A stretch of DNA of 33,265 nt from Caldilineales bacterium (GTDB lineage Bacteria; Chloroflexota; Anaerolineae; J102): NCBI GenBank assembly GCA_013360575.1, contig JABWBG010000010.1, positions 1 through 33,265 on the forward strand, written 5' to 3'. Below the pieces are notes generated by a model. That model had not been told where the DNA came from, searched no databases, and saw nothing but the letters and a program-made list of their open reading frames with translations. The translations under genes and the position numbers were made by a program. How positions within the stretch are numbered: the stretch's first letter is position 1; every line of letters begins with the position of its first letter. Below, piece by piece: positions 4,816-28,140 of the stretch.

Positions 4816-4972
4816 GTGATGCGTGATGCGTGATGCTTGGGGCATAAAACGTAAAACGTAAAACGTAAAATGTAAAACGTTAACTATAGCGATACCTTCA
4901 CCAATCTACCAATCTACCAATCTACCAACCAACTAACCAACCAACCAACCAACCAACCAACCAACCAACCTA
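4816..4972. repeat. Composite tandem array: (GTGATGC)3 - (GTAAAAC)5 - (ACCAATCT)3 - (AACC/AACT)n
   Basis: Direct reading; ends on the CTA (reverse TAG) stop codon of livF at 4970-4972. Confidence 0.95.
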
Positions 4973-5710
4973 CCTCCCCTGCTTCCCCAAATACGCCTGT
5001 TGAATGGCGGGGTCGGCGGCGAGGTCGGCGGCGGGGCCTGCCATGACGATGCGGCCGGTTTCGAGAACGTAACCGCGGTCCGCAACGCGCAGCGCGGCGC
5101 GGGCGTTCTGCTCGACCAGCAGGATGATGGTGTCGATCTCGCGCAGGCAGTTGATGATCTCGAAAATATCGCGCACGATCAGCGGCGCCAGGCCCAACGA
5201 AGGCTCATCGAGCAACAGCACCTTGGGCCGCCCCATCAGGCTGCGGCCAATGGCCAGCATCTGCTGCTCGCCGCCCGAAAGCGTGCCCGCCAACTGCTTC
5301 TCCCGCTGCTTGAGGATGGGAAACATGGCGTAGATGGTCTCGATATCCAGATGCAGGGTCTTGCGATCCTTGATCGGCGGCTCGCCCCGCCCGCGCATAC
5401 GCGTGTACGCGCCCAGGGTCAGGTTGTCGCGCACACTCAGCGTGGCGAAGACTTGCCGCCGCTCCGGCACCTGACAGACGCCCAGGTTGACGATCTTCTC
5501 CGGGCTGAGCCGGGTGATCTCGACGCCGTTGAGCAGGATCTGGCCGCTGCGGGCCGGCGTCATGCCCGAGATGGTGTTCAGCAGCGTGGTCTTGCCCGCG
5601 CCGTTGGCGCCGATCAGCGAGACGATCTCGCCCGGGTGGGCGGCCATCGAAACCCCGCGCAGGGCCTCGACATGGCCATACGAGGTGGAAACGTTCTTGA
5701 TTTCAAGCAT
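4970..5710 (-). CDS. livF: Branched-chain amino acid-type ABC transporter ATPase LivF
   Basis: [22 protein letters not shown]...[11 protein letters not shown]...[33 protein letters not shown]. Confidence 0.92.
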
Positions 5711-6506
5711 CAGCAGCCTCCCGCCGCGGCGGCGCGGCCCAATCATCGCCGAGATAGGCCGCGATCACATCGGGATTGGCCTGCACCTGCGCCGGCGAGC
5801 CTTCGGCGATCTTGCTGCCGTAGTGCAACACCACCACATGGTCGGCGATGGCCATCACCAGGTTCATGTCATGCTCGACCAGCAACACCGAGATGCCCTG
5901 GTCGCGGATGCGCAGGATCAGGCGGTCGAGTTCTTCAGTCTCGGTGCGATTCAGCCCAGCCGCAGGTTCATCCAGCAGCAGCAACTGCGGCTGCACCGCC
6001 AGGCCGCGGGCGATCTCCACCAGCCGCTGCTGGCCAAAGGGCAGGGATCCGGCGGGGTCGTGGGCCCGTTCGGCCAGCCCAGTCTGTTCCAGATAGGACA
6101 TGGCCTGGCCGCGCATTCGCTTCTCCTCGGCCCCGGCTTTGGGCAGGCGCAGGGCCGCGGCCAGGAACCCGGCCGTGCCTTGCAGATGGCAGCCCGCCAT
6201 CACATTCTCCAGCACCGTCATCTCGCCAAAGATCTGTAAGTTTTGGAAGGTGCGCGCCAGGCCCTGCTGCGCGATCTGGCTGGGGCGCGAGCCGGAAATG
6301 CGCCGGTCTCTGAAGATCACCTCCCCCTGATCCGGCCCGTGTGTGCCGGAGATGAGGTTGAAGGTGGTGGTCTTGCCCGCGCCATTTGGGCCGATCAGGG
6401 CCAGGATCTGCCCTTCCTGGACAGCGAAGCTGACGTCGTTGACGGCCATCACGCCGCCAAAACGCTTGAACAGGCGGCTGGCGCGCAGGAGAGGAGTGTC
6501 GCTCAT
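5703..6506 (-). CDS. livG: Branched-chain amino acid-type ABC transporter ATPase LivG
   Basis: GPNGAGKTTTFNLISG...SLPFGQQRLVEIARGLAVQPQLLLLDEPAAGLN...LVEHDMNLVMAIADHVVVLHYG. Confidence 0.92.
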   Translation of the reverse strand: MSDTPLLRASRLFKRFGGVMAVNDVSFAVQEGQILALIGPNGAGKTTTFNLISGTHGPDQGEVIFRDRRISGSRPSQIAQQGLARTFQNLQIFGEMTVLENVMAGCHLQGTAGFLAAALRLPKAGAEEKRMRGQAMSYLEQTGLAERAHDPAGSLPFGQQRLVEIARGLAVQPQLLLLDEPAAGLNRTETEELDRLILRIRDQGISVLLVEHDMNLVMAIADHVVVLHYGSKIAEGSPAQVQANPDVIAAYLGDDWAAPPRREAADA

Positions 6507-7795
6507 GCCGTGTGCCTCCGGTCGATCACCCGCACAGCTTTGCCCGGAGGGCGTTCGATGCTGCCCACCGGCGTCAGCTCGATCCGCGCCCGCAGCCCCA
6601 GTTGATCGTAGAGTTTGTCGCTCAGCCGGCTTGCCAGCGCCCGGCTGGATGCAGTCTCCGCCGCCAGCGGCGATTCCACCAAAATGTGCACTTCATCCTT
6701 GCCCCCCACCCGCTGCAAATGGATTTGATAATCGTTAGCCACCTGTTCGTGCTCCATCAAAATCGTTTCCACCTGTTTGGGGTAAAAATTGATGCCTTTG
6801 ATCTTGAGCATGTCATCGCTGCGGCAGGCGATGCGGTCCACCCGCAGCCCGGTGCGCCCGCAGGCGCAGGCCTCACGGCTGAGGATGCGGGTGATGTCCC
6901 GCGTGCGGAAGCGGATCAGGGGCAGGGCCTCGCGCGTCAGAGTGGTGACGACCATCTCGCCCCACTCGCCATCCGCCACCGGTTGCTCGCTCTCCGGGTC
7001 GATGATCTCGACCAGATAATGGTCTTCCCAGACGTGGATGCCGCTGTGCGCGGGGCAGTCGATGCCCATGCCCACGCCGCCGGTCTCGGTCATGCCGATG
7101 ATGTCGAAGGTCTCGATCCCCATCGTCATTTCCACCCGGCGGCGGAGTTCATCGCTCCACACCTCGGCCCCGAAGATGCCCACACGCAGCCGCGTTTGGG
7201 TGTGGAAATCGAAGCCTTCTTCTGCCGCGACTTCGATCAATCGCAGGGGATAGCTGGCCACCGCGGCCAGGGCCGTGACATTCAGATCCCGCAGAAATTG
7301 TAATTGCAAGCCGGTGCGGCCCGCGCCGATGGGGATGATCATCGTCTCCAGGGTGCTGGCCCCGTAATGAAAGCCGAAGCCGCCGTTGAAGAGGCCAAAA
7401 GAGGGCGTGATCTGGATCACGTCCTCCCGCCCCACCCCCGCCGCGGCCAGGCAGCGGGCCGAGATCTCGCCCCACTGCCGCACGTCGTTGGCCGTGTGTG
7501 GGCAGATGATCGGCGTGCCGGTGGTGCCCGAACTCATCTGCATGCGCACCATCTCGGTTTGCGGCACGCAGGCGAGCTGGAAGGGATAGGCATGGCGCAA
7601 GTCATTTTTGGTGATGAAGGGCAGATGGCGGATCTGCTCCAGGCTCTGCACGGTGGGGAGGGAGGCGAAGCGGCCGGCATAGGCCGGGTTGCCGGCGGCG
7701 ATGTGGGCCAGCGTGTGGCGCAATCGCTCCAGTTGCAAAGCCTCCAGGTCGGGGCGGGGCAGGGTTTCCAGGTCGGGTTGGTACATGGCGGGCAT
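6503..7795 (-). CDS. paaK-like: Phenylacetate/benzoate-CoA ligase family (PaaK-like AMP-forming ligase)
   Basis: MPAMYQPDLETLPRPDLEALQLERLRHTLAHIAAGNPAYAGRF...MSSGTTGTPIICPHT...GMTETGGVGMGIDC...LIRFRTRDITRI...CACGRTGLRVDRIACRSDDMLKIKGINFYPKQVE. Start chosen at ATG 7795; the ORF-track N-terminus is an unrelated in-frame extension. Confidence 0.9.
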   Translation of the reverse strand: MPAMYQPDLETLPRPDLEALQLERLRHTLAHIAAGNPAYAGRFASLPTVQSLEQIRHLPFITKNDLRHAYPFQLACVPQTEMVRMQMSSGTTGTPIICPHTANDVRQWGEISARCLAAAGVGREDVIQITPSFGLFNGGFGFHYGASTLETMIIPIGAGRTGLQLQFLRDLNVTALAAVASYPLRLIEVAAEEGFDFHTQTRLRVGIFGAEVWSDELRRRVEMTMGIETFDIIGMTETGGVGMGIDCPAHSGIHVWEDHYLVEIIDPESEQPVADGEWGEMVVTTLTREALPLIRFRTRDITRILSREACACGRTGLRVDRIACRSDDMLKIKGINFYPKQVETILMEHEQVANDYQIHLQRVGGKDEVHILVESPLAAETASSRALASRLSDKLYDQLGLRARIELTPVGSIERPPGKAVRVIDRRHTA

Positions 7796-7797
7796 GG

Positions 7798-8823
7798 TCA
7801 ACCTCCTGCCGGTTGAGCGCGTTCCGGCTTGCGCCGGGCGATGCGGGCGCGCAGGGCCTTGCCCGCGCCGGTGACCAGACCCTCCGGCATGAAGATCATG
7901 ATCAGCATCAGGATCAAGCCGAAGGCGATGATCTCCTGTTCGCCTGACGCGCCCGGCACCAGGGATTTGATGGCAGTGCGCAGCCACTGCTCGATCACCA
8001 GAATGGCTGCGGCCCCAAAGGTGGCGCCCCAGATGCTGGAAAGCCCACCCACCACCGCCATCAACACAATCTTGATGGAGGCGTTGATGGTGAAGGAGGA
8101 GGGGCTGATGAATCCCAAAAAGGAGGCATAGAGCCCCCCGGCCAGGGCGCTGTAGGCTGCGCTGAGCGCAAACACTTGCAATTTGAAGCGGCCGGTGTCG
8201 ATGCCCAGCGTTTCTGCCGCGATCTCGCTGCTGTGCAAGGCCCGCATCGCCCGCCCCACCCGCGAGTTGACAATGTTCAGGGAGAGGGCGATGGTGATCA
8301 GAGCGAAGAACCAGATCAGGTAATAATAGTGGGTGTCGGTGCTCAAGGTCATGCCGCCGATGCTGAGATCGGGCACGCCCCGGAATCCGGAGGGGCCGCC
8401 GGTCCAATCCACCTGCTGCGTCAGGATCAGATACAAGATGATGTTCATGCCCAGGGTGGCCATGGCCAAATAGTGCCCGTGCAGCCGGAAGATCAGCATG
8501 CCCAGCAGATAGGCCACGCCGCCGGCCAGGATCATGCCCGCCAGCAGCGACAGCCAGGGCGAGAGACCGAGACGGGTGGAGAAGATGGCCATGCTGTAGG
8601 CGCCGATGCCGAAGAAAGTGGCCTGACCCAGGGAGATCTGGCCGGCATAGCCCATCAGCAGTGAGAGGCCGATGGTGAGCATGGTGAACAGAGCGATGAT
8701 GGTCAGCACTGTGATGATGTAGTTGTTATCGATGAATACCGGCGCCGCGGCCAGGCCCAGAGCCATGATCAGGAAGGCGATCAGGTTCGGCGACCCTAGC
8801 CGGGCAATGAGCAAGCGTTTCAT
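7798..8823 (-). CDS. livM: Branched-chain amino acid-type ABC transporter permease LivM
   Basis: Polytopic; LLMGYAGQISLGQATFFGIGAYSMA...LRLHGHYLAMATLG...SSIWGATFGAAAILVIEQWL. Confidence 0.92.
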   Translation of the reverse strand: MKRLLIARLGSPNLIAFLIMALGLAAAPVFIDNNYIITVLTIIALFTMLTIGLSLLMGYAGQISLGQATFFGIGAYSMAIFSTRLGLSPWLSLLAGMILAGGVAYLLGMLIFRLHGHYLAMATLGMNIILYLILTQQVDWTGGPSGFRGVPDLSIGGMTLSTDTHYYYLIWFFALITIALSLNIVNSRVGRAMRALHSSEIAAETLGIDTGRFKLQVFALSAAYSALAGGLYASFLGFISPSSFTINASIKIVLMAVVGGLSSIWGATFGAAAILVIEQWLRTAIKSLVPGASGEQEIIAFGLILMLIMIFMPEGLVTGAGKALRARIARRKPERAQPAGG

Positions 8824-9749
8824 AAGCCTGCACGCTCCCCGGCGCTGCCCCGGCGGCGCAGGAAGCCGCCCAGCCGCACCGCCAATACGATGAAGAGGAC
8901 GATGAAGGAGATGGCATCCTTGTAGCCAGAGGAAAGATAGCCGGCGCCGAAGGATTCCAGCACCCCCAGCGAGATGCCCCCCAGCACCGCGCCGGCGGGG
9001 TTGGATAGCCCCCCCACGATGGCGGCGACAAAGCCCTTGAGCGAGAGGGTCAGCCCCCGGTCATAGGTCATGAAGGTGGAGGGCACGATCACAATGCCGG
9101 CAATGGCCGTGACCGCAGAACTGATGCCAAAGGCCAGCAGCGCCATCCGTTGAGGGCTGATGCCCATCAACTGCGCTGCCTTGGGGTTGTCGGCGCAGGC
9201 TTGCAGGGTCTTGCCGGTCAGCGTGCGGTTGAAGAACCAGTACAGGATCACCAGCAACACTGCCGTGACCGCGATCACCCACACGCTTTGGCGGGTGAGG
9301 ATGGCGCCGAAGATTTTCAGCGGCGGGCCTGGCGTGAACACGGGCAAGCGATAGGGGTCGGTGCCCCACAGCAGCAGCGCGGCCCCACGCATCACGAAGG
9401 CGGCGCCGATGGTGATGATGATCATGCTCAGGATCGAGGCTCGCCGCGCCGGCTGGATGGCCAGCCGATAGAGCAAGATCCCCACCAGGGTGGTGATGAC
9501 CACACCGACCAGGGCGGCTGCTGGCAGCGGCCACTCCAGCGCCACCTGCCAATTCCCGCTCAACAGGCGGCTTTTCTGAAAGGCTGTGATGGCAATGAAC
9601 GCGCCATAGACGGCAAATTCGCCCTGGGCGAAGTTGATGATGCCGGTGACGTTGTAGATTGTGACGAATCCCAACGCGATCAGCGCGTAAATACTGCCCA
9701 CAGTAATGCCGGCGAGCAGGAATTGGATGATCTCGGTCTGAAGACTCAT
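8820..9749 (-). CDS. livH: Branched-chain amino acid-type ABC transporter permease LivH
   Basis: FLLAGITVGSIYALIALGFVTIYNVTGIINFAQGEFAVYGAF...; ATGA overlap with livM. Confidence 0.92.
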   Translation of the reverse strand: MSLQTEIIQFLLAGITVGSIYALIALGFVTIYNVTGIINFAQGEFAVYGAFIAITAFQKSRLLSGNWQVALEWPLPAAALVGVVITTLVGILLYRLAIQPARRASILSMIIITIGAAFVMRGAALLLWGTDPYRLPVFTPGPPLKIFGAILTRQSVWVIAVTAVLLVILYWFFNRTLTGKTLQACADNPKAAQLMGISPQRMALLAFGISSAVTAIAGIVIVPSTFMTYDRGLTLSLKGFVAAIVGGLSNPAGAVLGGISLGVLESFGAGYLSSGYKDAISFIVLFIVLAVRLGGFLRRRGSAGERAGL

Positions 9750-9756
9750 TCGTTAG

Positions 9757-9898
9757 TCGGTTGGGTATTGGGTATTAGGTATTCGATACTGGTATCTTGC
9801 GAGCAATATCCAATATCCAGTATCCAGTATCCAATATGCAGTGAATGACACGAGATCGCCCACCACATACTGAATACTGAATACTGAATACTGAACTA
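9757..9898. repeat. Heptamer-type intergenic repeats: (GGGTATT-like)n, (TATCCAA/TATCCAG)n, (CTGAATA)3+
   Basis: Direct reading; the CTGAATA run degenerates into the SBP stop codon at 9896-9898. Confidence 0.9.
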
Positions 9899-12322
9899 CG
9901 GCGTGTCGGTGTAGGTTTCGGGCGCGACGTAGGCCCAACCGCCATCTTTGATCTGCACCATCACCAACGATTCTTTGCCGATGCCGTTGTGATCCTGCGC
10001 TGACAGATTGAAGATGCCGGAGATGCCCACGAAGTTCTGGATGCTTTCCAGGTAATCGCGGATGCCGGCGGGGTCCGGCCCAACGACTTGCAGGGCCGAG
10101 AAGGCCATTTGCATGGCATCCCAGGCGTGGCCGCCGAAGGTGCTGGGCTTGGATCCGCCGGTGTAGGCGGCGTAGTCCTCGATGTAGCGCAGCAGGGTGG
10201 CTTTCTGCGGGTCGGTGTCGGGCAGGCCCTCGGCCACCAGCAGCTTGCCGATGGGGAAGAGCACGCCTTCGGCCGCGGCGCCGGCCAGATCGATGAAGGC
10301 CTGGTTGCCGATGCCGTGGTTGTGCACGATCGGCATCTCCAATCCCAGGTCGCGGAACTGCACGGTCAGGGGTGCGCCCTCGCCGGGGGTGGCGTGGACG
10401 ATGAGCACTTCGGCGCCGGAGCCGGCGATGCGCGTGAGTTGGGCGGTGAAGTCGGTGTCGCCCGGCTCGAAGGTGCCTTCCCAGAGGATCTCAAGGCCGC
10501 GGGCGGCTGCCACGCGTTGCAGCGCGGCCATCGAGTCGGCGCCGAAGCCGTTGTTGACGCCAAAGGAAGCGATCTTGGTGATGCCGCGCGCTTGCATCCA
10601 GTCGGCCTGCACTTCGGCCACGGGGTCGTTCTGCTGCGGGGTCTTGAAGACCCAGTGGCGTTCTTCCACCGGCTGGATGATGGAGCCGGCGGAGGCGTTG
10701 GAAATGAAGGGCACCTGCGCTTCGGCGATGGTGTCGAGCACGGCCATGCTGACGCCGCTGGTGGTGCCGCCCACGAGGATGGGGGCGCCTTCTTCGAGCA
10801 GGCGCTTGACGATCAACACGCCTTCGGTGGCGTTCGATTGATCATCTTCGAAGATGCCTTCGATCGGATGCAGCTTGCCATCGGGGCCGAGCAGGCCGCC
10901 GCGGCCGTTGATCTGGTCGATCAACATCATGGCGGTGTCGCGCTCTGGTACGCCCAGGGAGGAGCCGGGGCCGGTGACGGAGAAGAAGAGGCCGATCTTG
11001 TAGGGATCGCCGGTCTCGCGCAGGCCGCGGGTGGGGGCGTTGGCATACAGGGCCGGCGGCACATATTGCCAGCCGCCATCGATGATCTCGACCATCACCA
11101 ACGATTCTTTGCCGATGCCGTTGTGATCCTGCGCCGACAGGTTGAAGATGCCGGAGATGCCCACGAAGTTCTGGATGCTTTCCAGGTAATCGCGGATGCC
11201 GGCGGGGTCGGGGCCGGCCGCTTGCAGGGCCATGATCGTCATCTGCATGGCATCCCAGGCGTGGCCGCCGAAGGTGCTGGGCTTGGATCCGCCGGTGTAG
11301 GCGGCGTAATCGGTGACGTATTGGGTGAGCACGCCTTTTTGCGGGTCGGTGACGGGCAGGTCTTCATGCACCAGCAGCTTGCCGATGGGGAAGAGCACGC
11401 CTTCGGCCGCGGCGCCGGCCAGATCGATGAAGGCCTGGTTGCCGATGCCGTGGTTGTGGACGATGGGGATGTTCAGCCCCAGGTCGCGGAATTGCACGGT
11501 CAGGGGCGCGCCCTCGCCGGGGGTGGCGTGGACGATCAGCGCCTCGGCGCCGGAGCTGCCAATGCGTGTGAGCTGGGCGGTGAAGTCGGTGTCGCCCGGT
11601 TCGAAGGTGCCTTCCCAGAGGATCTCAAGGCCGCGAGCCGCCGCGACGCGTTTCAGCGCGGCCATCGAGTCGGCGCCGAAGCCGTTGTTGACGCCAAAGG
11701 AAGCGATCTTGGTGATGCCTTTGGCTGCCATCCAGTCGGCCTGCACTTCGGCCACGGGGTCGTTCTGCTGCGGGGTCTTGAAGACCCAGTAGCGTTCTTC
11801 CACCGGCTGGATGATGGAGCCGGCAGAGGCGTTGGAAATGAAGGGCACCTGCGCTTCGGCGATGGTGTCGAGCACGGCCATGCTGACGCCGCTGGTGGTG
11901 CCGCCCACGAGGATGGGGACGCCTTCTTCGAGCAGGCGTTTGACGATCAGCACGCCTTCGGTGGCGTTCGATTGATCATCTTCGAAGATGCCTTCGAGCA
12001 AGTGCAGTTTGCCATCGGGGCCTTCGATGCCGCCGGCGGCGTTGACTTGCTCGATCATCATCATGGCGGTGTCTCGTTCCGGCACGCCCAGAGAGGAGCC
12101 GGGGCCGGTGACGGAGAAGAAGAGGCCGATCTTGTAGGGGTCGCCCTGGACGGGGCCGGCAGGCACAGGCGTGGCCGCGGGGGCAGAGGTGGCGGTCGCC
12201 GCGGGCGGCTGCGTGGGCGGTACAGGTGTGGCTGTGGGCGCTGCGGGGGTGGCGCCTCCGCAGGCGGCCAGCACAAGCGCCAGCAGTGTCAGAAGTAGCA
12301 GCAATCGAAAGTGGGTACGCAT
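9896..12322 (-). CDS. ABC transporter substrate-binding lipoprotein, internal tandem duplication of a Leu/Ile/Val-binding (Peripla_BP_6-like) domain
   Basis: Lipoprotein signal MRTHFRLLLLLTLLALVLAACGG; two consecutive nearly identical GDPYKIGLFFSVTGPGSSLGVPERDTAMM...IKDGGWAYV modules; SD GAGGAG upstream of ATG 12322. Confidence 0.9.
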   Translation of the reverse strand: MRTHFRLLLLLTLLALVLAACGGATPAAPTATPVPPTQPPAATATSAPAATPVPAGPVQGDPYKIGLFFSVTGPGSSLGVPERDTAMMMIEQVNAAGGIEGPDGKLHLLEGIFEDDQSNATEGVLIVKRLLEEGVPILVGGTTSGVSMAVLDTIAEAQVPFISNASAGSIIQPVEERYWVFKTPQQNDPVAEVQADWMAAKGITKIASFGVNNGFGADSMAALKRVAAARGLEILWEGTFEPGDTDFTAQLTRIGSSGAEALIVHATPGEGAPLTVQFRDLGLNIPIVHNHGIGNQAFIDLAGAAAEGVLFPIGKLLVHEDLPVTDPQKGVLTQYVTDYAAYTGGSKPSTFGGHAWDAMQMTIMALQAAGPDPAGIRDYLESIQNFVGISGIFNLSAQDHNGIGKESLVMVEIIDGGWQYVPPALYANAPTRGLRETGDPYKIGLFFSVTGPGSSLGVPERDTAMMLIDQINGRGGLLGPDGKLHPIEGIFEDDQSNATEGVLIVKRLLEEGAPILVGGTTSGVSMAVLDTIAEAQVPFISNASAGSIIQPVEERHWVFKTPQQNDPVAEVQADWMQARGITKIASFGVNNGFGADSMAALQRVAAARGLEILWEGTFEPGDTDFTAQLTRIAGSGAEVLIVHATPGEGAPLTVQFRDLGLEMPIVHNHGIGNQAFIDLAGAAAEGVLFPIGKLLVAEGLPDTDPQKATLLRYIEDYAAYTGGSKPSTFGGHAWDAMQMAFSALQVVGPDPAGIRDYLESIQNFVGISGIFNLSAQDHNGIGKESLVMVQIKDGGWAYVAPETYTDTP

Positions 12323-12460: not shown

Positions 12461-13348
12461 TCAGGAAGTGAGACCCAGAAGCCGGGCGGCGTTGTCGTGC
12501 AGAATGGCTTGTTTGCTTGTCTCTGCCAGTGGCAGGGCCTGGATGGCGGCGATGTTGCGGCTCAGGTCGGGGTTGCCGGGCCAGTCGGAGCCGTAGATGG
12601 CTTTGTGAGCCAGCATTTCCAGCCGGGGGAAGGTGGTCAGCAGGTTTTTGGCCGGCAGGCCGGAAAGCTCCAAGTAGACGTTGTCGTGGCGGCGGGCCAT
12701 CCAAAAGGCTTGTTCGTACCAGAAGGGCCGTCCGCAATGCGCCATCAGGATGTTGAGTTTGGGGAAGTCGATGGCCACATCGTCCAGGAGCAGGGGGTCG
12801 CCATATTTGATGCGGGCGCCTTTGAAGATGGAGGAGCCGGTATGCACCAGCATGGGCAGGCCCAGTTCTTCGGCTTTGGCATAGAGCGGGTACATGCGGG
12901 CGTCGTTGGGGTAGTGGTGCTGATAGACCGGGTAGACTTTGATCGCCCGCACGCCGTAGACCTGCACCAGCCGCTCCAGCTCGGCCCCCAGGTCGTTTTC
13001 GATGAAGGGGTTGAGGCTGGCGCAGGGCAGCAAGCGCCCTCGTGGGCCTTCTGCGGGGTCGGGCAGGGCGTTGGCTGCCTGACAGAACTCGCCCATGTAG
13101 TCGTTCGTTGTCCAGCCGGTGGTGATCGGTGTGGGATCGGCCAGTCCCACGGCCCAATCGATGCCGTTTGCCTGTAAAAGAGCACGAATGCCTGCCGGCG
13201 TCAGCATGGCGTCGATGTAGGCATCGACATCCAGCCCGCTGGCCGCCAGCGGCCCGGCAAAGTCCTGCTCGAAGTTCTGGCGATACCAGTCTCGCACCCA
13301 GGGCCGCAGGTGGCTGGCATGGCTGATGTGGATGTGGAAGTCGATCAT
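12461..13348 (-). CDS. Amidohydrolase-2 / ACMSD-like metal-dependent hydrolase or decarboxylase
   Basis: [14 protein letters not shown]...[12 protein letters not shown]...[32 protein letters not shown]...[16 protein letters not shown]; HxH and GSDWP motifs. Confidence 0.78.
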
Positions 13349-14364
13349 GGCATGACGACCGAGCGGATGCCCTCGCCCCCGCGCACATGGTCGAGGGCGG
13401 GGTTGATCTGATCCAGGGGGAAGCGGGCCGTGACCAGTTCGGCGATCTTGATCTTGCCGCTGCTGGCCAGGGCCAGCACCCGCGGGTAGTCCACCGCCCG
13501 GCAGCCCAAGGAGCCGATCAATTCCATTTCCCGGTACATCACCCGGCCGGAGTTGAGGGTCATGGGCTTGGGAGAGTAGCCGACCATGACGAAACGCCCG
13601 CCGTTGCGCACCGAGGCAAAGGTCTGCTCCTGCGTGATCGGGTTGCCGATGGCCTCGAAACCGATGGCCGCGCCGCCGCCAGTGAGGGCCCGCACTTCTT
13701 TGTCCGCCCGTTCCACGTTTTTGGCGTTGACTACGGCCTGCGCGCCCAGTTTCCTGGCCATCTCCAGCTTTTCGTCGGCGATGTCCACGGCCACCACGTG
13801 CGCGCCCAGGGCGGCGGCGATCTGGACGATGTTGATGCCCACCCCGCCGCAGCCGAAGACGACGACGCTATCCCCCGGCTTCACCTGGCCGCGGTTGACC
13901 ACGGCATGGTAGGGGGTGGTCACGGCGTCGGCGATGATGGCGCCTTCGATCAGGGGCAGATCTGCCGGCAGGGCCACCACATCTTTGGCCGGGGCCAGCA
14001 TGTATTCGGCGTAGCCGCCATCGACATTGTTGCCAAACATGACCATGCGCTCGCAGATGTTCTCGCGCCCGGTGCGGCACATCTGGCATTGGCCGCAGCC
14101 ATACACCGCCGGAACCAGCACGCGGTCACCCTCGCGCCAGGCCGCGCCCGCGCCCACGGCTGCGATCAGCCCCGAGACTTCGTGGCCCAGCACCAGCGGC
14201 GGCTTTTTGAAGGTGGGCACGCCGTGGTCGATGTAGGAGAGGTCGGTGTGGCACAGCCCGCAGGCCGCGACCTTGACCAGCACCTCCCCAGGCCCCGGCG
14301 TGGGCGTGGCGATCTCTTCGATTTGCAGTGGTTGGTGAGGAGCGTAGAAGATGGCTGCTTTCAT
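13345..14364 (-). CDS. had: Zinc-dependent medium-chain alcohol dehydrogenase, likely 6-hydroxycyclohex-1-ene-1-carbonyl-CoA dehydrogenase (Had)
   Basis: [13 protein letters not shown]...[13 protein letters not shown]...[15 protein letters not shown]...[12 protein letters not shown]...[13 protein letters not shown]; assignment to Had rests on the Dch/Oah/BCR context. Confidence 0.78.
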
Positions 14365-14484
14365 GGTAAATTGGTAAATTGGTAAATTGGTAAATTGGTA
14401 AATTGGTAAATTGGTAAATTCGAGACTATTTGTTACTGACCACTGACCACTGAATACTGAATACTGACTACTGACTACTGACTA
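14365..14484. repeat. Composite tandem array: (GGTAAATT)7 then (CTGACCA)2(CTGAATA)2(CTGACTA)3
   Basis: GGTAAATT units 14365-14420 start immediately after the had start codon; CTGAxxA units 14436-14484 end exactly on the thiolase stop. Confidence 0.97.
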
Positions 14485-15678
14485 TCCATCCACATGAATC
14501 ACAATCGCGGCGGCGGTGTCGCCGGCGGCGCAGCCGCTGAAGAGGCCGTAGCCGCCGCCCAGCAGGGCCAGTTCTTCGATCAACTCGATCAGCAAGCGCA
14601 TGCCGGTCGGCGCCTGGGGATGGCCCCAGATCAGCGAGCAGCCGAAGTTGTTCATGCCCGTGGCGGGGATGCCCAGCTCGCGGCTGAGATAGCAATCGTT
14701 GACGGCAAAGGGGTTGTGGGTCTTGATCGCCTTCACATCGGCCAGGGTGATGCCGGCGCGGTCGAGGACGCGGCGGATGGCGGGGACATTGGCCGCGGGC
14801 ATGAAGCCTTTGCGCTCGCGGCCCTCGGCAAAGGCGATGAGGCGGATCTCGATCCCCGGCTCGCGGCTCAGCTCACGCGCCTGCTGGCGCCCGGCCAGGA
14901 TCATGCCGGCGTTGCCGTCGGCGGGGTAGGTCTGGCCGCCGTAGGTGACGGATCCGCCCGGCAGCACCGGTTTCAGCCGGGCCAAGCCCGCGGGGGTGCT
15001 GGGGAACACGCCCTCGTCATCCTGCACGGTCGCCATGACTTTGCGCCCGCTGGGGTTGATCTCGATGGGCATGACCATGTAGCGGCGGTGGAAGGCGGCG
15101 GCGTCGGCCAGGGCCTGCTGGTACTGCTCGTAGCGCAGCAGAGTCACTTCGTGCTGCTCGGCGGTGGAGATGCCTGCTTCCCGCGCCACGTTTTCGGCGG
15201 TTTCGACCATGCTCAGCCCGGCGAAGGGGTCGCAGTTGAAGTTGTCCCACACCCAATCCTCGGCGTCGCCGCGGGCGCCGGGGGCCAGCGGGTTGGGGTA
15301 GAGGATGTGCGGGCCGTTGGAGGTGCGGTCGGCGGTGAGGCAGAGCAGAGGCCCGGCGCCGCTATTTGTGATCTCGAAGGCGGCGCTGGCGATCACGCGG
15401 GCGGAGGTGGCGCAGGCCTGGCTCAGGGTCGGCCCGGTGATCTCGCCGGCTCCGAGCATCCCGGCCACCCAGGGCGCGGCGTAGAACGCGCCCTGACTGG
15501 GCACCGTCGCGCCCAGAAAGAGGCCGCTGAAGACCTGGGGCGAGATGGCGCGCTCGGCCAGCGCCCGTGTGGCCGTCTCCGCCGCGAATTTGAGCGGATG
15601 CAGGTTGGCATACGCCCCTTGCCATTTCACAAAAGGCGTGCACCAATAACCTCCATAAGGAATGTAACAATCAAGCAT
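14482..15678 (-). CDS. Thiolase-family acyl-CoA acyltransferase
   Basis: SQACATSARVIASAAFEI (nucleophile Cys), GMNNFGCSLIWGHPQAPTGMR (His motif), GLFSGCAAGDTAAAIVI. Confidence 0.82.
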   Translation of the reverse strand: MLDCYIPYGGYWCTPFVKWQGAYANLHPLKFAAETATRALAERAISPQVFSGLFLGATVPSQGAFYAAPWVAGMLGAGEITGPTLSQACATSARVIASAAFEITNSGAGPLLCLTADRTSNGPHILYPNPLAPGARGDAEDWVWDNFNCDPFAGLSMVETAENVAREAGISTAEQHEVTLLRYEQYQQALADAAAFHRRYMVMPIEINPSGRKVMATVQDDEGVFPSTPAGLARLKPVLPGGSVTYGGQTYPADGNAGMILAGRQQARELSREPGIEIRLIAFAEGRERKGFMPAANVPAIRRVLDRAGITLADVKAIKTHNPFAVNDCYLSRELGIPATGMNNFGCSLIWGHPQAPTGMRLLIELIEELALLGGGYGLFSGCAAGDTAAAIVIHVDG

Positions 15679-15693
15679 CTTACTCGCTCTCTC

Positions 15694-15730
15694 TAATCGT
15701 TAATCATTAATAATTGATGATTAACGATTA
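15694..15730. repeat. Near-perfect 16-bp inverted repeat (hairpin) upstream of thiolase
   Basis: TAATCGTTAATCATTA - ATAAT - TGATGATTAACGATTA, one mismatch. Confidence 0.9.
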
Positions 15731-15754
15731 AAACGCAATACAAAATACCAAATA

Positions 15755-16516
15755 TCAAACCTTAAGCCCGCCATCGACAAAGATCGTCTGGCCGGTGATG
15801 TAGGAGGCCATGTCCGAGCAGAGGAAGGCGTGCACCGAGGCGATCTCTTCCGGCTCGGCCAGGCGACCGAAGGGGATCTCGTGCAGCAGTTCTTGCATGA
15901 TCGGGTCGGGGATGGCGGCGGTCATCTGGGTTTTGACGCCGCCGGGCGCGATGCAGTTGACGGCGATGTTGTAGCGCGCCCATTCTTTGGCCAGCGCCCG
16001 CGTCAGCCCGATCACACCTGCCTTGGAAGCGGAGTAGTTGGCCTGGCCGATGTTGCCCAGGGCCGAGACCGAGGCGGTGTTGACGATGCGGCCCGACCGT
16101 TGCGCCATCATCGGCACGGCCGCCAGCTGGGCGCACAGCCAGACGCCCTTGAGATTGACATCGAGCACCGCGTCCCACTGCTCTTCGCTCATCAGCTTGA
16201 CCTGGCCATCTTTGACGCGGGTGGTGAGGGCGTCTCGGGTGATGCCGGCGTTGTTGATCAGGATGTCGAGCCGGCCGAAGCGCTGCACGGCCGTATCGAC
16301 CATGCGCTGCACATCCTCGCGCACGCTGACATTGCCCACGGCCGTAGCCACCGCGCCCCCCGCAGCAACGACTTCTTCGCACACAGTCTCCAGCGCTGCT
16401 GCTGCGAGATCGGCAATGACAACCTGAGCGCCCGCGCGAGCAAAATAAAGCGCTGTAGCCCGGCCGATGCCATTGGCCCCGCCGGTAATCAATGCAACTT
16501 TGTTTTCTAATAACAT
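15755..16516 (-). CDS. SDR-family 3-oxoacyl reductase / 3-hydroxyacyl-CoA dehydrogenase (FabG-like)
   Basis: [20 protein letters not shown]...NNAG...[26 protein letters not shown] upstream. Confidence 0.88.
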
Positions 16517-16525
16517 GTGAATCTC

Positions 16526-16651
<126 letters not shown>

Positions 16652-16654
<3 letters not shown>

Positions 16655-17098
16655 CCCATTCCGCATCAAAAGCGTCCATTCGCCATCGATGACGGTTTCC
16701 TGGCGGTGGTTGAGGACGCGGGCGGCGAAGCGAACCACCCCGCGGTCAGGTTTGGAGGTCGGCTTCTTCTCCAGCACTTCCAACTCCAGGTGCACGGTAT
16801 CGCCGAAGCGCACCGCGCCTTTGTAGCGGATGATCTGCTCCATCAGGGCCAGGGTGGTGCCTTCGAACACGCCAGTCCAGTTGGCCATGCCGGTGGCCAT
16901 GGCCGCGATCAACATGCCGTGGGCGATGCGCTCGCCAAAAGGCGTCTGGCGGCCGAACTCGGCGTCGGTGTGGAGGGGGTTGAAATCGCCTGAAAGCCCG
17001 GCGAAGGCCACGACATCCGCTTCCGTCACTGTACGGCTTTGAGAAACGAAGCGATCGCCGAGGGCGAACTGGTCGAAGGTGAGGCCGCGTGTGGGCAT
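16652..17098 (-). CDS. MaoC-like (R)-hydratase
   Basis: RGLTFDQFALGDRFVSQSRTVTEADVVAFAGLSGDFNPLHTDAEFGRQTPFGERIAHGMLIAAM; SD AAGGAG. Confidence 0.87.
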
Positions 17099-17120
17099 GG
17101 GGGGCAGCTCCTTGTCAGCT

Positions 17121-17885
17121 TTAGTGGTGGCGCCAGAGGGGGGCGCGTTTTTCCAGGAAGGCGGTCAGGCCCTCGTGGGCGTCGGCGGTGGCCATCAGTT
17201 CTTGCAGATAGACCTGCTCGATGGCAGGCAGGCGGGCGGCCCAGTCGCCGTAGCCCAGCAGCAGCGAGCGCTTGAGCAGGTGCATGGCCGCGCGGCTCAT
17301 GGCGGCAAAGACGGCAGCCTTTGCCCGCGCCCAGTCTTGCACCTCGGCCGCGGGCAGGACAGCATTGACCACTCCCATCTGCAACGCTTCCGCGGCGCCG
17401 AGGCTGCGCCCGCTGAACATCAGATCCGCAGCCGCGCGGTATCCGACCAGATAGGGCAGGCGCAGGGCGGCGATGGGCGCGAAGGAGGCCAGTTGGATCT
17501 CCGGCTGGCCGATTTTGGCGTGTTCGGCCAGCACGGCCAGATCGCAGCAAAGCACCAGCTCGCAGCCGCCGCCCAGGGCGTGGCCCTGCACCGCGGCCAC
17601 CGTGGGCGTGGGAAATTCGGCCAGGGCCTGGCACACGCGGTCGAAGAGGGGGATCATCTCTCCCACCTTGTCCGCGGTATGGTCGGCCACATCCACCCCG
17701 GCCGAAAACAGTTTGCCCGCGGCCTGCACGATGAGCGCGCGCACGCCTTCATCCTCGGCCAGCGCTGCCAGCGCCGCATCCAACTCGCGCAGCATCGGCA
17801 GATGCAGGACATTGACCGGCGGCCGGTTCAACGTCAGCACCGCCACACCGTCAGTGATTTCGATAGTTAGAAATGAATCAGACAT
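17121..17885 (-). CDS. dch: Enoyl-CoA hydratase family, likely cyclohexa-1,5-diene-1-carbonyl-CoA hydratase (Dch)
   Basis: Crotonase fold: LIVQAAGKLFSAGVDVADHT...VAAVQGHALGGGCELVLCCDLAV...; located between Oah and the beta-oxidation genes. Confidence 0.8.
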   Translation of the reverse strand: MSDSFLTIEITDGVAVLTLNRPPVNVLHLPMLRELDAALAALAEDEGVRALIVQAAGKLFSAGVDVADHTADKVGEMIPLFDRVCQALAEFPTPTVAAVQGHALGGGCELVLCCDLAVLAEHAKIGQPEIQLASFAPIAALRLPYLVGYRAAADLMFSGRSLGAAEALQMGVVNAVLPAAEVQDWARAKAAVFAAMSRAAMHLLKRSLLLGYGDWAARLPAIEQVYLQELMATADAHEGLTAFLEKRAPLWRHH

Positions 17886-17903
17886 GGTGTGTTGTTATGG
17901 GTA

Positions 17904-17974
17904 TTGCGTAAAACGTAAAACGTAATAGGAAACGCAAATTACGCATTACGTTTTACGTATTACGTTTTACGCAA
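17904..17974. repeat. GTAAAAC heptamers arranged as an inverted repeat (hairpin)
   Basis: Arm TTGCGTAAAACGTAAAACGTAAT (17904-17926) pairs with 17952-17974 at 21 of 23 positions; abuts the oah stop at 17975. Confidence 0.92.
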
Positions 17975-19108
17975 CTATCGCTCGATCGGCTGGGGTAGGA
18001 CTTGGGCGAAGAGTTCGTCGCCTGCCTCGACGCCCTGGGCCAGCAGTTGGCGGTAACGGATGAAATCGATCGTGTCCTTGCCGGTGAGCTTGCGGTTGTT
18101 GAAGGCGGTGAAGCCGAGAAAAGCCTCGTTGGTCATGTTGGCGGCCAGCCAGTGGCGATAATAATCCTTGGCCGCGTCCCAGAAGAACTTCTTCTTGGCT
18201 CGAATACCGTCGATCGACATCTGCAGGCAGTGCGGGAAGAGATTGGTGAAGGTCCACAGCACCTCATCCACAGCCTGATCCAGCAGACTGAGGTCGATGA
18301 CAGCGGTTTTTTGCAGATCGCGGGCGGCGGCCAGGGCGGCGCCGCTCTTCATCTCGCCGTAGACGATGGCCCCATCCTGCACATAGTCCTCGGTGATCAC
18401 ACTGGGGTTGCGCAGCCAGACGCCCTCTTGGCGCAACACCGGCACAACCTTGCTGATGTAGCCCTTGCGGTGCATCTTGTACGCGCTCCACATCTCGCAG
18501 GAGATGCAATTCCACATGGCATCTTCGATGGTGAGATACCAGGGCAGAAAATCGGTGGAGCCGCCGACCGGGGCGGAGCCATGCCGCGGCCCCGCCTGCC
18601 CAAACACGGCCAGATCCGAGGCAATGGCAATGTCGCAGGCCCCGCCGATCTCCTGCCCCCCGGCCACGCGCATCCCGTTCACCCGGCTGATCACCGGTTT
18701 CTTGGCGTTGAGGATGCTGTCGACCATGGCGTTGAAGAGGTCCATGTACAGGGCGTATTCGGTGGGGCGGCGGCTGTAGTATTCGGCGTACTCTTTGGTA
18801 TTGCCGCCGGTGCAAAATGCCTTGTCGCCCACGCCGGTGAAGACGATGGCCACCACGCTGCGATCCATCGACGCCCGTTTCATGCCCGCGATCACGCCCT
18901 TGACCATGTCGGTGGTGTAGGAATTGTATTGGGCGGGGTTGTTCAGCCACACCCAGGCCGAGTACAACCCTTCGACCGGGTGGCCTTGCGGGTCGCGGAT
19001 CGGTTTCTTCTCATAGATCACACTGGGCGGTTCGGCGCGGAAATACGCGTCGCCGCCGAGATCGTGGTCGACAAGCGTATCCGTGCGGGGCAGCCAATCG
19101 AGAGACAT
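17975..19108 (-). CDS. oah: 6-oxocyclohex-1-ene-1-carbonyl-CoA hydrolase (Oah/BamA-like)
   Basis: MSLDWLPRTDTLVDHDLGGDAYFRAEPPSVIYEKKPIRDPQGHPVEGLYSAWVWLNNPAQYNSYTTDMVKGVIAGMKRAS...FCTGGNTKEYAEYYSRRPTEYALYMDLFNAMVD; ring-opening hydrolase signature. Start set at ATG 19108 (SD AAGGAGC) rather than 19153. Confidence 0.92.
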   Translation of the reverse strand: MSLDWLPRTDTLVDHDLGGDAYFRAEPPSVIYEKKPIRDPQGHPVEGLYSAWVWLNNPAQYNSYTTDMVKGVIAGMKRASMDRSVVAIVFTGVGDKAFCTGGNTKEYAEYYSRRPTEYALYMDLFNAMVDSILNAKKPVISRVNGMRVAGGQEIGGACDIAIASDLAVFGQAGPRHGSAPVGGSTDFLPWYLTIEDAMWNCISCEMWSAYKMHRKGYISKVVPVLRQEGVWLRNPSVITEDYVQDGAIVYGEMKSGAALAAARDLQKTAVIDLSLLDQAVDEVLWTFTNLFPHCLQMSIDGIRAKKKFFWDAAKDYYRHWLAANMTNEAFLGFTAFNNRKLTGKDTIDFIRYRQLLAQGVEAGDELFAQVLPQPIER

Positions 19109-19157
19109 GCCTTTGCTCCTTGCGGGTGGTGCGGGGGGCGTATTGCGTGACATCCGT

Positions 19158-20024
19158 TTACCGGTCTGCTGCGCCGGCCTCGTTCATGATTGCGCGAATG
19201 AACTTATTGGCAGGGGTATTCAGGTGGTCGCGGTAATCGCTGACCAACCGGCGAGCGGTAAAGCCGATCCAATCCGGCGGCAGTAACTGTGTGGGCAGGT
19301 TGGGGTCGCGCAGGGGCAGGGCCTGGAACTCGTGCGTGATCCAGAAACGGCGAATGAAGCACTCCTGCGCGTTGGCGCACATCTCCTGCGGCGATAGACC
19401 GGCGAAATGTTCGTATTCAGGTTGGTAGCGAGCGACGAAATCCTGGTACTGCTTTTCCAGATCCTGCAAATCCCAGCAGCGCTTGACCAGTTCCTGCCCG
19501 GTCGAAGGCCCCAGATGCACGCCGGAGAACTGCTCGGCAAAGGCTTCGATCCGTAGATCATGAAACAGATCGGCCAGCTCGCGTTGGCGGTTGTGCGGCG
19601 AAATCCAGGTGCCGGGAGCAAGACGGCCAAACCCCAGCCAACTGAGCTGTTTGCGCAATTCGTGCCGGGTCTTGCGTCTCCGTTCCGGCAGCGAAAAGGC
19701 CACCAGATGCCAGGTCTCATCCCAATCGGTGAAGATCGGTTCGAAAATGCGTTCATATCCGGCCTGTAACAGCGCCTGGCCGCGGGGGGTGATGGTGTAT
19801 CGGCTGCGCCGCCCGTGCTTTCGGGCCGATATCCAGCCTTTGCGCGTCATGCGCGAGAGGGTGGAGCGCACGGCCCGCTCGCTCACGTCTAGCGGGCCCA
19901 TCAGCGAAAGTATATCGCTTGTCCAGATTTTACCGCCATTAGGCAAGATATAATCACCTAACAGCGTGAAAAAGATGAACTGGGTGCGGACGGGCAAGGA
20001 AGCTGAGTTTTCGATCCCGTTCAT
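19158..20024 (-). CDS. paaX-like: PaaX-family transcriptional regulator
   Basis: RTQFIFFTLLGDYILPNGGKIWTSDILSLMGPLDVSERAVRSTLSRMTRKGWISARKHGRRSRYTITPRG...WHLVAFSLPERRRKTRHELRKQLSWLGFGRLAPGTWISP. Confidence 0.9.
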   Translation of the reverse strand: MNGIENSASLPVRTQFIFFTLLGDYILPNGGKIWTSDILSLMGPLDVSERAVRSTLSRMTRKGWISARKHGRRSRYTITPRGQALLQAGYERIFEPIFTDWDETWHLVAFSLPERRRKTRHELRKQLSWLGFGRLAPGTWISPHNRQRELADLFHDLRIEAFAEQFSGVHLGPSTGQELVKRCWDLQDLEKQYQDFVARYQPEYEHFAGLSPQEMCANAQECFIRRFWITHEFQALPLRDPNLPTQLLPPDWIGFTARRLVSDYRDHLNTPANKFIRAIMNEAGAADR

Positions 20025-20039
20025 AGCAGCGTGTCGATC

Positions 20040-20297
20040 TCACGAAAATTGTTCAGGTTTCGGTTTCCTCTTGCGGGTGTAAAGGGTTACGAAGAAATTC
20101 GTGGCCAGGGTGCAACCCTGGCATTCCTCACTCAGGTCGGAGGCAAGGATCGGTTCCAGATGCACCTCGTAGCCCATGGCGGCGTACAACTCCGTGGCCT
20201 CCTTGGCCCGGCCCGCTCCGGCCATGAAGCGGCGTTCCCAGCCCTGGGCGACCAGTTCCGGTTTGGGCGGATGCTCCGTGTCTGGCGCGAGGTACAT
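20040..20297 (-). CDS. Small CxxC-containing protein of unknown function
   Basis: 85 aa MYLAPDTEHPPKPELVAQGWERRFMAGAGRAKEATELYAAMGYEVHLEPILASDLSEECQGCTLATNFFVTLYTRKRKPKPEQFS; tightly packed between the reductase ATPase gene and paaX. Confidence 0.65.
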   Translation of the reverse strand: MYLAPDTEHPPKPELVAQGWERRFMAGAGRAKEATELYAAMGYEVHLEPILASDLSEECQGCTLATNFFVTLYTRKRKPKPEQFS

Positions 20298-20306
20298 GAG
20301 GATGGG

Positions 20307-21140
20307 TCAGGCCAACGCCGGGGCCGTTTCCAGGTCTGCTGGCTGGCTTTCGATCTTGTGCAAGCGAACATGCCCCAGGATGGCCGCGCCAAACGCGGTG
20401 GTGAATTGCACCAGTTCGCCCGCGGGCACGTTGACCTCGCTGCTGAGCTCTCGTCGCACCACCGCGGCCATGCTGGGGAAGCGGAGAATGCCGCCGATCA
20501 GGGTAAACTCCGGCTCCATCTGCACCCGTTTCATCAGCTGCACCGAGCGATCGACCAGGGAGGAGATGGCCCCGAACATGATGTCGGAGGGGGCCGCGCC
20601 CAGCGAGAGATGGTTGATCACCTCCGATTCGGCGAACACGGCGCAGACGCCGGAAATGGGCACCGCGCCTTTGGAGGTGGCCGCCAGCGGCCCGATCTCC
20701 TCGGTGGAGAAGCCCATGTAGCGGGCGGTTTTTTCCAGGAACGCGCCTGTGCCCGCGGCGCATTTGTCGTTCAGGCGGAACGATTTCACCTTGGTCTCGT
20801 CGTCCAGACGGATTGCCTTCATCGTCTGGCCGCCCACATCGAGGATGGTGCGGGTGTGGGGGAAGAGGGTGGAGACGCCCCTGGCGCTGGCGGTCAAGTC
20901 GGTGGCCGTGACATCGGCAAAGGGGATCTGATGGCGGCCAAAGCCGGTGGCCACAGTGTAGGCCAGTTGGGCAGCGCCGATGCCGGCCTGGGCCAGCGCT
21001 TGATCCAGAGCCGTACGCGCGGCCTGGGCCAATTGGAAGCCGGTGTTGGTCATCGCCTTGCCGGCGATGCGGTTTTCCTGGTCGATCACGACAACCTTGG
21101 TGTAGGTCGAACCCACATCGATGCCTGCAGTGTACGTCAT
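20307..21140 (-). CDS. bzdQ: Benzoyl-CoA reductase ATPase/activator subunit (BzdQ/BcrD-like, BadF/BcrA/HgdC family)
   Basis: GIDVGSTYTKVVVID...DVGGQTMKAIRLDD...[21 protein letters not shown]...CAVFAESEVINHLSLG. Confidence 0.87.
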   Translation of the reverse strand: MTYTAGIDVGSTYTKVVVIDQENRIAGKAMTNTGFQLAQAARTALDQALAQAGIGAAQLAYTVATGFGRHQIPFADVTATDLTASARGVSTLFPHTRTILDVGGQTMKAIRLDDETKVKSFRLNDKCAAGTGAFLEKTARYMGFSTEEIGPLAATSKGAVPISGVCAVFAESEVINHLSLGAAPSDIMFGAISSLVDRSVQLMKRVQMEPEFTLIGGILRFPSMAAVVRRELSSEVNVPAGELVQFTTAFGAAILGHVRLHKIESQPADLETAPALA

Positions 21141-21143
21141 AGT

Positions 21144-21956
21144 TTATGCCTCCGTAGCGGGCAAGGGAGCGCGACTGTTCACAATCGCATCCATGGCAAA
21201 GAGGGCCGCGCCCAGCGCGCCCATGAAATGCGAATCGTCGCTGACATTGAGTTGGATGCCCAGATTGTCCTGCAGGGCGTAGATCATGCCGATATTCTTG
21301 GCCACGCCGCCGGTGAAGGTGACTTGATCCTCGATCCCGACCCGGCGCAGCAGCCCGATCGAACGCTTGGCGATCGATTGGTGCACGCCCATCAGGATGT
21401 CCTCGATCTTCTTGCCCTTGCCCAGCCAGGAAAGCACCTCCGACTCGGCGAAAACGGTGCAGGTGGTGCTGATGCGCACCGGCCGCTCGGCTTGCATGGC
21501 CCGCGACCCCAAATCGGGCAGGGGGATGGCCAGGGCCGATGCCGCCGCGCCCAGAAAACGCCCGGTGCCTGCCGCGCATTTGTCGTTCATGCAAAAGTCG
21601 ATGATCTCGCCGTTTGGCCCCACGCGGATCGCCTTGGTATCCTGGCCGCCCATGTCGAGCACGGTGCGGGTGGCGGGGAACATGTGCGCGGCCCCGCGGG
21701 CATGGCAACTGATCTCCGTCACCTGCGTGTTGCCAAAGGTGACTTTGTAGCGGCCATAGCCGGTGCCGATCACATACTCCACCTCTTCTTCGCGGATGCC
21801 GCCATCCTCCAGCGCCTGCGTATACGCGTTTTCCGCCGCCTGGATCACGTTGGCGCCGGTGTCGATCAAGGCCCGGCCCACGATCTCGCGCGCTTCATTG
21901 ATTACGATGGCTTTGGTTTGAGTCGATCCGACATCCACGCCGGCTGAAAAGCTCAT
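21144..21956 (-). CDS. bzdP: Benzoyl-CoA reductase ATPase/activator subunit (BzdP/BcrA-like)
   Basis: [16 protein letters not shown]...[12 protein letters not shown]...[20 protein letters not shown]...[16 protein letters not shown]. Confidence 0.87.
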
Positions 21957-21994
21957 ACTGATTCTCCTTGCAGTGCAGTGTGTGCGATTGATCC

Positions 21995-23278
21995 TCAGGC
22001 GGCGGCCCGGCGGGCAGCCAACCCTTCGAAATAGGCGTCGATACGGTTCTTCAGCTGCGCCTCCGACACCACCCGGCGGTCCATCATGTCCGACTCGATG
22101 AACAGGGTGGGGATGTCGCGCGACGCCATCACCGCCCGGCGGTTGTCGGCCAGGCCGGTGGAGACGGTGCGGCAGCTCTTGATCGGATGGTAGATGATGC
22201 CGTCCGCTTCAAATTCGTCCACCATGCCGGCCAGCACCTGATCTTGATAGAACATGCTGTCCATGGCATCACGTACGCTGATCAGGATGCCCTCGGCCAG
22301 GCTTTCCAGGGGATCGTTCAAATTGTACTCGAAGCCACGGTTCGTGCCGCCGGATGCAAACCAAAGATAGGTGGAATTGATAAAGGTGCCGCCCCATTGC
22401 GTGAACATCTCGTTGAAGCGGCGGAAGATGGGGTAGCAGGGCACACCGACGAAGAGCAGCCGGTATTTTTCATCGGTCAGGGTGCCGATGCCATGCGCCG
22501 CCTTGTATTCCATCTCCTCCACCAGCCGGTCGAAGAAGATCGCGCCCTCGGCCCGCCCGCGGAAGCCATTGGCCACGCCCAGATAGACGGTGCCATCGGT
22601 GAGGGCGTTGAAGAGGGAGGGGCGGCTGCGGTTCAGTTCCAGCACCCGCGACCACCCGCGGCTCATCACATTGGCGTGGCCCAGCACCTCGCGCAGGCGG
22701 TCGATGTCGAAGGGAATGCCGGTCACCTGCTCGCACAGAGCGATCAATTCCTTCAGTTGGGCAGCGACATATTTGCGATCGTTCTCGAAATCGGGGTCGC
22801 CTCGCCAGGTCTGCATCCGCGCCTGGCGCGTCCCCGGCACGTCGAGGGTGAAAATCGGGATCTTGTACATCCGCTCCCAGATCTCCGCCCATTTGATGTA
22901 GGTGTTGCAGGCGTTGGTGTACACCGCCAGCGAGGGCGTGGGGATCTGCCCCATGGGATGGGCGCCTTTGCGCAACTGAACAGCCACATCTGCCTTGACA
23001 TAGCCGCAGATGTCGGGCGAATAGCCGTAATCCTCGGCCTCGTTGAGATATTCGTGGGCCACGCGGCGCACGGCCGTCTGCAACGAGTTGATCTCCGGGA
23101 AAACGGTGGGCAGGTCGAACACGCGCAGCACCTCGGCAATGCTGCCCATCACGAACACATAGGCCGATTGCCCGCCCTGCTCTGCCGTCGCGCTTAACTC
23201 CTCGAACCAGGAGCGGAAGAGGTCGGCCCCTTCCCGGTTGCCCCGGCCAACAAGTTCCGTGTGTTGATCTGTGGTCAT
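21995..23278 (-). CDS. bzdO: Benzoyl-CoA reductase ring-reducing subunit (BzdO/BcrB-like)
   Basis: 2-hydroxyacyl-CoA dehydratase-family protein, 427 aa: [31 protein letters not shown]...[15 protein letters not shown]...[32 protein letters not shown]...[23 protein letters not shown]. Confidence 0.88.
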
Positions 23279-23310
23279 GATAACTTACCTTGAGAAGGGA
23301 AATGTGTTTG

Positions 23311-23337
23311 GTGCGTGGTGCGTTTTACGTTTTACGC
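23311..23337. repeat. Short composite array (GGTGCGT)2 - (GTTTTAC)2 between bzdN and bzdO
   Basis: ggtgcgtggtgcgttttacgttttacg read directly. Confidence 0.85.
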
Positions 23338-23340
23338 TCC

Positions 23341-28087: not shown

Positions 28088-28105
28088 GACAGTTCCTTCG
28101 GGCAA

Positions 28106-28140
28106 GGGTGCGCCCCGGCCAAGCCGGCCGGGGCGCACCC
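28106..28140. other. Perfect GC-rich hairpin: 15-bp stem, 5-nt loop
   Basis: GGGTGCGCCCCGGCC-AAGCC-GGCCGGGGCGCACCC in the spacer between the S-component stop and the ATPase start. Confidence 0.92.

Follow-up and report, generated by a model that had tools for sequence, protein, structure and literature searches.

Why a translocator should be served by several binding domains is a mechanistic question that has been studied mainly in the importers GlnPQ and OpuA of Lactococcus lactis. In OpuA, each of two copies of a fusion between a substrate-binding domain (SBD) and a TMD contributes one member of the SBD pair. These SBDs interact transiently (PMC11065425). GlnPQ has two tandem SBDs (SBD1-SBD2) in one membrane-anchored chain, which bind ligand independently of each other and use a common translocator (PMC8025302). 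This chain also includes the transmembrane subunit, and its two SBDs have different specificities. Substrate-binding proteins (SBPs) of the HAAT type are known from Rhodopseudomonas palustris, where very few of the COG0683 proteins annotated for branched-chain amino acids shifted with these ligands and where such proteins bound other amino acids as well as hydrophobic compounds such as aromatics (PMC3223731).

The window analysed here, a stretch of 33,265 nucleotides from the draft genome of a Caldilineales bacterium (Chloroflexota; contig JABWBG010000010.1), carries a gene for a HAAT-type lipoprotein with two binding domains in tandem (Table 1). The minus-strand frame is open from 12373 to 9896 (825 aa), and the likely start is the ATG at 12322 (3' of GAGGAGAGATGAC), which is preceded by a Shine-Dalgarno-like GAGGAGA. 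Searches with the Pfam model Peripla_BP_6 returned two full stretches in the tandem frame, with 366 bits against a gathering cutoff of 31.7, in agreement with a preliminary description of two Leu/Ile/Val-binding-type domains; the range given there, 9896-12145, covers both repeats but leaves out the signal peptide and the Pro/Ala/Thr-rich linker. The inter-domain linker is short, as in GlnPQ (~10 residues versus 14 aa). Unlike GlnPQ, however, the window encodes a separate lipoprotein with two near-identical HAAT-type domains and no fusion to a transmembrane subunit: the lipoprotein frame ends at 9896, and LivH is a gene of its own. With OpuA the locus shares the provision of two SBDs for one translocator, but the OpuA pair does not derive from a tandem lipoprotein. 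Searches of the open-access literature for free-standing tandem SBP lipoproteins and for tandem SBPs in Chloroflexi gave mainly papers on GlnPQ or on unrelated subjects and, judging by titles and abstracts, no lipoprotein of this kind, which is weak evidence of absence.

Table 1. Positions in the window of the tandem SBP gene, its parts and its neighbours
Feature	Position	Strand	Basis or remark
Tandem HAAT-type substrate-binding lipoprotein gene	9896..12322	-	808 aa from likely ATG 12322; longer ORF from 12373
Signal peptide with lipobox LVLAAC	12260..12322	-	sequence; acylated Cys codon 12262-12260
Pro/Ala/Thr-rich linker, anchor Cys to domain 1	12146..12259	-	sequence
Repeat 1: Peripla_BP_6 domain and ~10-residue linker	11012..12145	-	repeat spacing, Pfam, identity; single-domain AF2 model pLDDT 96.3
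Repeat 2: Peripla_BP_6 domain	9899..11011	-	repeat spacing, Pfam, identity
Patch A, repeat-specific (in repeat 1)	11996..12037	-	columns 35-48, lobe 1; repeat 2 counterpart 10862-10903
Patch B, repeat-specific (in repeat 1)	11315..11362	-	columns 261-276, lobe-1 loop and helix; repeat 2 counterpart 10181-10228
Patch C, repeat-specific (in repeat 1)	11231..11236	-	columns 303-304, lobe-1 helix; repeat 2 counterpart 10097-10102
Patch D, repeat-specific (in repeat 1)	11036..11089	-	columns 353-370, C-terminus and linker; repeat 2 counterpart 9902-9955
Lobe 2 of repeat 1, homogenised part	11399..11782	-	columns 121-248; repeat 2 counterpart 10265-10648
LivH-type permease	8820..9749	-	family-model score
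LivM-type permease	7798..8823	-	family-model score
PaaK-like aryl-CoA ligase within transporter operon	6503..7810	-	family models; same place in G017, JALUPA, G249, G298
LivG-type ATPase	5703..6506	-	family-model score
LivF-type ATPase	4970..5746	-	family-model score
Benzoyl-CoA-type pathway catabolic genes	12461..24552	-	upstream of SBP, same strand

The two halves of the gene are direct repeats 1134 bp apart that share 89% of their amino acids and 90% of their nucleotides. Their 115 nucleotide differences are clustered (run-length P = 2e-4), so that the period, the identical stretches and the clustering noted earlier were all reproduced. Both peptides quoted in the preliminary description are identical across the repeats, and the residue that follows differs in each case: V in repeat 1 (EEGVPILVGG) and A in repeat 2 (EEGAPILVGG) after the first, Y (EERY) and H (EERH), respectively, after the second. 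The genome is a 403-contig draft, and the possibility that an assembler had duplicated one domain had been raised. We rejected this explanation as virtually impossible, because the same architecture recurs with different sequence in four other assemblies, giving five independent assemblies with the tandem, and because of the 115 differences between the copies, whose longest identical stretch is 93 nt and which ordinary 150-nt reads are therefore able to separate.

Full-length tandem orthologs with 78-85% identity are present in four other genomes, all of them, like the window's, drafts and few in number: G017 from the window's own family (84%), G298 (79%), G249 (78%) and an Ardenticatenaceae MAG (JALUPA010000572.1, 78%; JALUPA hereafter). 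The lipobox Cys is likewise visible in these four, and the gene order SBP-LivH-LivM-PaaK-like ligase-LivG-LivF is common to all five. The nearest single-domain proteins, in G219 and G237, are 73-80% identical per domain, and no remnant of a second domain was found beside them in gaps of 1.1 kb and 0.6 kb; these proteins could have arisen secondarily, through collapse of a tandem. The two genomes (L077 3880-5100, L078 8780-9500) also encode a small membrane-anchored protein with a helix-hairpin-like motif, 'IEGIGPKI', placed between LivH and the single-domain SBP; no counterpart was seen in the corresponding interval of the window.

Sequence comparison indicates that one shared ancestral duplication, rather than a recent one as first proposed, gave rise to these proteins and that it predates the divergence of the five genomes, the majority of them close to synonymous-site saturation. 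We judged the duplication to be shared on the basis that 12 alignment columns distinguish the two repeats in every one of the five species and that sites with a positional pattern (shared by the same repeat across species) greatly outnumber crossed sites. Positional, concerted and crossed sites numbered 18/37/1 between the window and G017 and 12/45/1 between the window and G249, and the positional to crossed ratios across comparisons were 18:1, 13:1, 12:1 and 8:0; the window-G017 ratio corresponds to a binomial P of 8e-5, yet the columns are clustered. At the 18 columns the single-domain sisters agree with repeat 1 in 19 cells and with repeat 2 in 7, so it is mostly repeat 2 that is derived. 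In trees, the repeats pair within species for the window and for G017, whereas those of JALUPA, G298 and G249 form repeat-1 and repeat-2 clades, both in the protein tree of the whole domain and in the codon tree of lobe 1 (support 95 and 98 in the latter).

The pairing of repeats within the window and within G017, the close single-domain homologs in G219 and G237, and the occurrence in the window's family of other tandem SBPs (distant subfamilies, probably of separate origin) could also be accounted for if each lineage had recently duplicated a single-domain ancestor on its own, without gene conversion. We consider this unlikely given the excess of positional over crossed sites and the recurrence of the same 12 columns in five species, and because G017 and JALUPA show sharp identical tracts beside divergent lobe-1 segments, their divergence not being uniform.

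If a duplication is shared and its copies evolve independently, orthologous repeats are expected to be closer to each other than the repeats within one protein. The reverse holds at synonymous sites for the window, G017 and JALUPA: within-protein dS is 0.24 in the window and 0.16 in G017, compared to ~0.46 between the two, and 0.60 in JALUPA, which lies more than 1.2 from all others; ortholog dS ranges overall from 0.46 to >1. Within-protein dS is 0.84 in G298. The relation fails for G249, whose repeats (within-protein dS 1.50) gave no sign of homogenisation. In G017 a tract of 446 nt is identical between the repeats (P 2e-4), and a test on the longest run of identical third positions gave P values of 1e-4 for G017, 2e-4 for JALUPA and 0.058 for the window; conversion in the window therefore rests on its lower within-protein dS together with the clustering of its differences.

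Homogenisation is uneven along the domain. In columns 121-248, which we take to be lobe 2 from the LivJ lobe boundaries, dS is lower than in lobe 1 (0.02 versus 0.25 in G017 and 0.16 versus 1.02 in JALUPA), and dN in G017 is 0.000 versus 0.091. The window shows little contrast in dS (0.21 versus 0.26) and a larger one in dN (0.041 versus 0.092). None of the columns that distinguish the repeats in all five species falls in lobe 2; they lie in lobe 1 or at the C-terminus, and half of them sit at positions that vary among single-domain homologs, which leaves room for part of the retained differences to be neutral. The evidence points to an old duplication followed by repeated, lineage-specific and tract-limited gene conversion, strongest in lobe 2, consistent with the ongoing conversion that had been suspected from the window alone. 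Long-lasting concerted evolution has been described for 26 prokaryotic paralog genes, which recurrent gene conversion likewise keeps more alike within than between species (PMC6053082); those paralogs are separate genes, whereas the window holds two domains of one gene that are homogenised unevenly by lobe.

To place the domain structurally, we used a confident single-domain AF2 model made from 35 homologs (pLDDT 96.3); a model of the whole tandem from 8 sequences was poor (pLDDT 64.5, pTM 0.42), and domain packing is not readable from it. The best structure match of the single-domain model was 4dqd, a 3-phenylpyruvate binder (TM 0.88, E 2.5e-34), which together with the model itself supports a type I periplasmic-binding-protein fold. 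Further solved matches were 3sg0, 4f8j/4eyo (p-coumarate) and 4eyq (caffeate), and sequence searches also led to 4dqd and 3sg0. The closest structures are thus aromatic-acid-binding HAAT SBPs of R. palustris (4dqd, 3sg0, 4f8j, 4eyq, 4evq), which have the same fold, are ~28% identical to the window domain and differ in having one matched stretch per chain.

The genes for LivH, LivM, the PaaK-like ligase, LivG and LivF follow downstream of the tandem SBP on the same strand, so that the full set of LivH, LivM, LivG and LivF partners of a HAAT SBP is present. In each of the five tandem operons the gene for this ligase separates LivM from LivG, which suggests that import is coupled to CoA trapping. 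Upstream lie genes for an amidohydrolase, a Had-like dehydrogenase, a thiolase-like protein, an SDR, a MaoC hydratase, an enoyl-CoA hydratase, PaaX, Oah (6-oxocyclohex-1-ene-1-carbonyl-CoA hydrolase; 17975-19153, above the equivalog cutoff of TIGR03200) and four benzoyl-CoA-reductase-like subunits (20307-24552, minus strand). The last four score well under the Bcr and Bzd equivalog cutoffs and possibly represent a divergent class of aryl-CoA reductases in Chloroflexota. Farther out, beyond an ECF-type transporter (25580-28273), we observed a hydantoinase A and B (oxoprolinase-type) gene pair (28930-32735, minus strand).

The gene context and the structural matches suggest that the tandem SBP takes up aromatic acids and, with the R. 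palustris data, point to import with subsequent CoA trapping by the PaaK-like ligase. That the importer serves branched-chain amino acids instead is improbable: the permeases and ATPases do score best with the LivH, LivM, LivG and LivF models, but all scores are far under the equivalog cutoffs, the best structural matches of the SBP are aromatic-acid binders, and a PaaK-like CoA ligase stands in the operon with the Oah and reductase-like genes adjoining. The E. coli LivJ/LivK-type model NF011933 gave 101.4 bits, below its curated cutoff of 477. Moreover, the motif that should align with what we take to be the amino-group-binding Glu of LivJ reads NHG in the window and THG in 3sg0.

The three pocket-region motifs that we compared (columns 78-92, 98-112 and 228-240) are identical between the window repeats, which argues for two equal binding sites and goes against the earlier proposal of two ligands. 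Conservation of repeat-specific residues across large synonymous distances implies that the repeats are not interchangeable, as they would not be if the domains had specialised for different ligands in the manner of GlnPQ. We nevertheless hold such specialisation to be unlikely, because the pocket-region motifs compared are the same in both repeats and because the repeat-specific sites fall in lobe 1 and at the C-terminus, where half of them occupy variable positions. By analogy, independent binding and one shared translocator, as in GlnPQ, would be the likeliest working model for the putative aromatic-acid importer, and the greater local ligand capture initially put forward for the tandem is plausible.

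We then asked how widespread such proteins are, using Pfam PF13458 at E <= 1e-20. In the window's family (20 genomes), at least 15 two-domain frames occur among 109 listed matches (~94 frames), in at least 10 of the 20 genomes. Among the matches listed for 43 genomes of the class outside this family we found at least three two-domain frames, in two genomes, and among those listed for a 40-genome sample of the phylum none. Tandem HAAT lipoproteins are concentrated in the window's family, an excess that is descriptive since genomes are not independent; the architecture, first described as unusual for HAAT importers, is so for Chloroflexota generally but not for this family. At least four separate tandem subfamilies exist there (~20-40% identity between them, 66-100% within proteins), and several of the other tandem SBPs, belonging to distant subfamilies, probably arose separately. 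Two of the 15 frames, L095 (G014:C217; 896 aa) and L096 (G005:C93; 833 aa), have two Peripla_BP_6 matches with no BLASTP similarity detectable between the halves and are, as judged from these matches, heterotypic tandem SBPs. In L039 (G014:C281), L045 (G014:C347) and L046 (G017:C10) the repeats differ by 0, 3 and 2 nt over ~1.1 kb, reflecting either very recent homogenisation or assembly; they were kept out of the evidence, because in draft genomes an assembler may itself produce identical repeats of 1.1 kb.

Taken together, we favour, with a probability of roughly 70%, an old tandem duplication followed by tract-wise conversion in the lipoprotein of an aromatic-acid Liv/HAAT importer with two equivalent sites. 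The protein would be the membrane-anchored SBP of an ABC importer that feeds aromatic carboxylic acids into a benzoyl-CoA-type pathway. Its binding domain would have been duplicated once in tandem, ahead of the five-genome split, and in several lineages, each on its own, short tracts would then have been transferred from one half to the other through gene conversion or equivalent RecA-type recombination, keeping most of the domain, and lobe 2 above all, alike. Selection or exclusion from conversion may keep ~12 lobe-1 and C-terminal residues repeat-specific. With two equivalent sites on a single lipid anchor, both would supply the same ligand to one LivHM translocator and capture near the membrane would rise, as is thought for the two SBDs of GlnPQ; the distinct lobe-1 faces may determine which of the repeats docks or how the two pack together. 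More tentatively, and with considerable doubt, conversion could act as maintenance at the level of the lobe that leaves the lobe-1 docking or packing faces distinct, such that equal traps engage the translocator differently, in a family that would have evolved tandem HAAT lipoproteins on several occasions.

The matching transporter operons of the single-domain sisters, of two homogenised tandems (window, G017) and of a tandem that is not homogenised (G249) form a natural series in which the effect of domain number can be told apart from the effect of domain specificity. The locus is also a clear example of conversion between two domains of the same bacterial gene, with a visible boundary between equalised and non-equalised parts. 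The tandem binding protein is real, old, shared among the five genomes and under partial concerted evolution.
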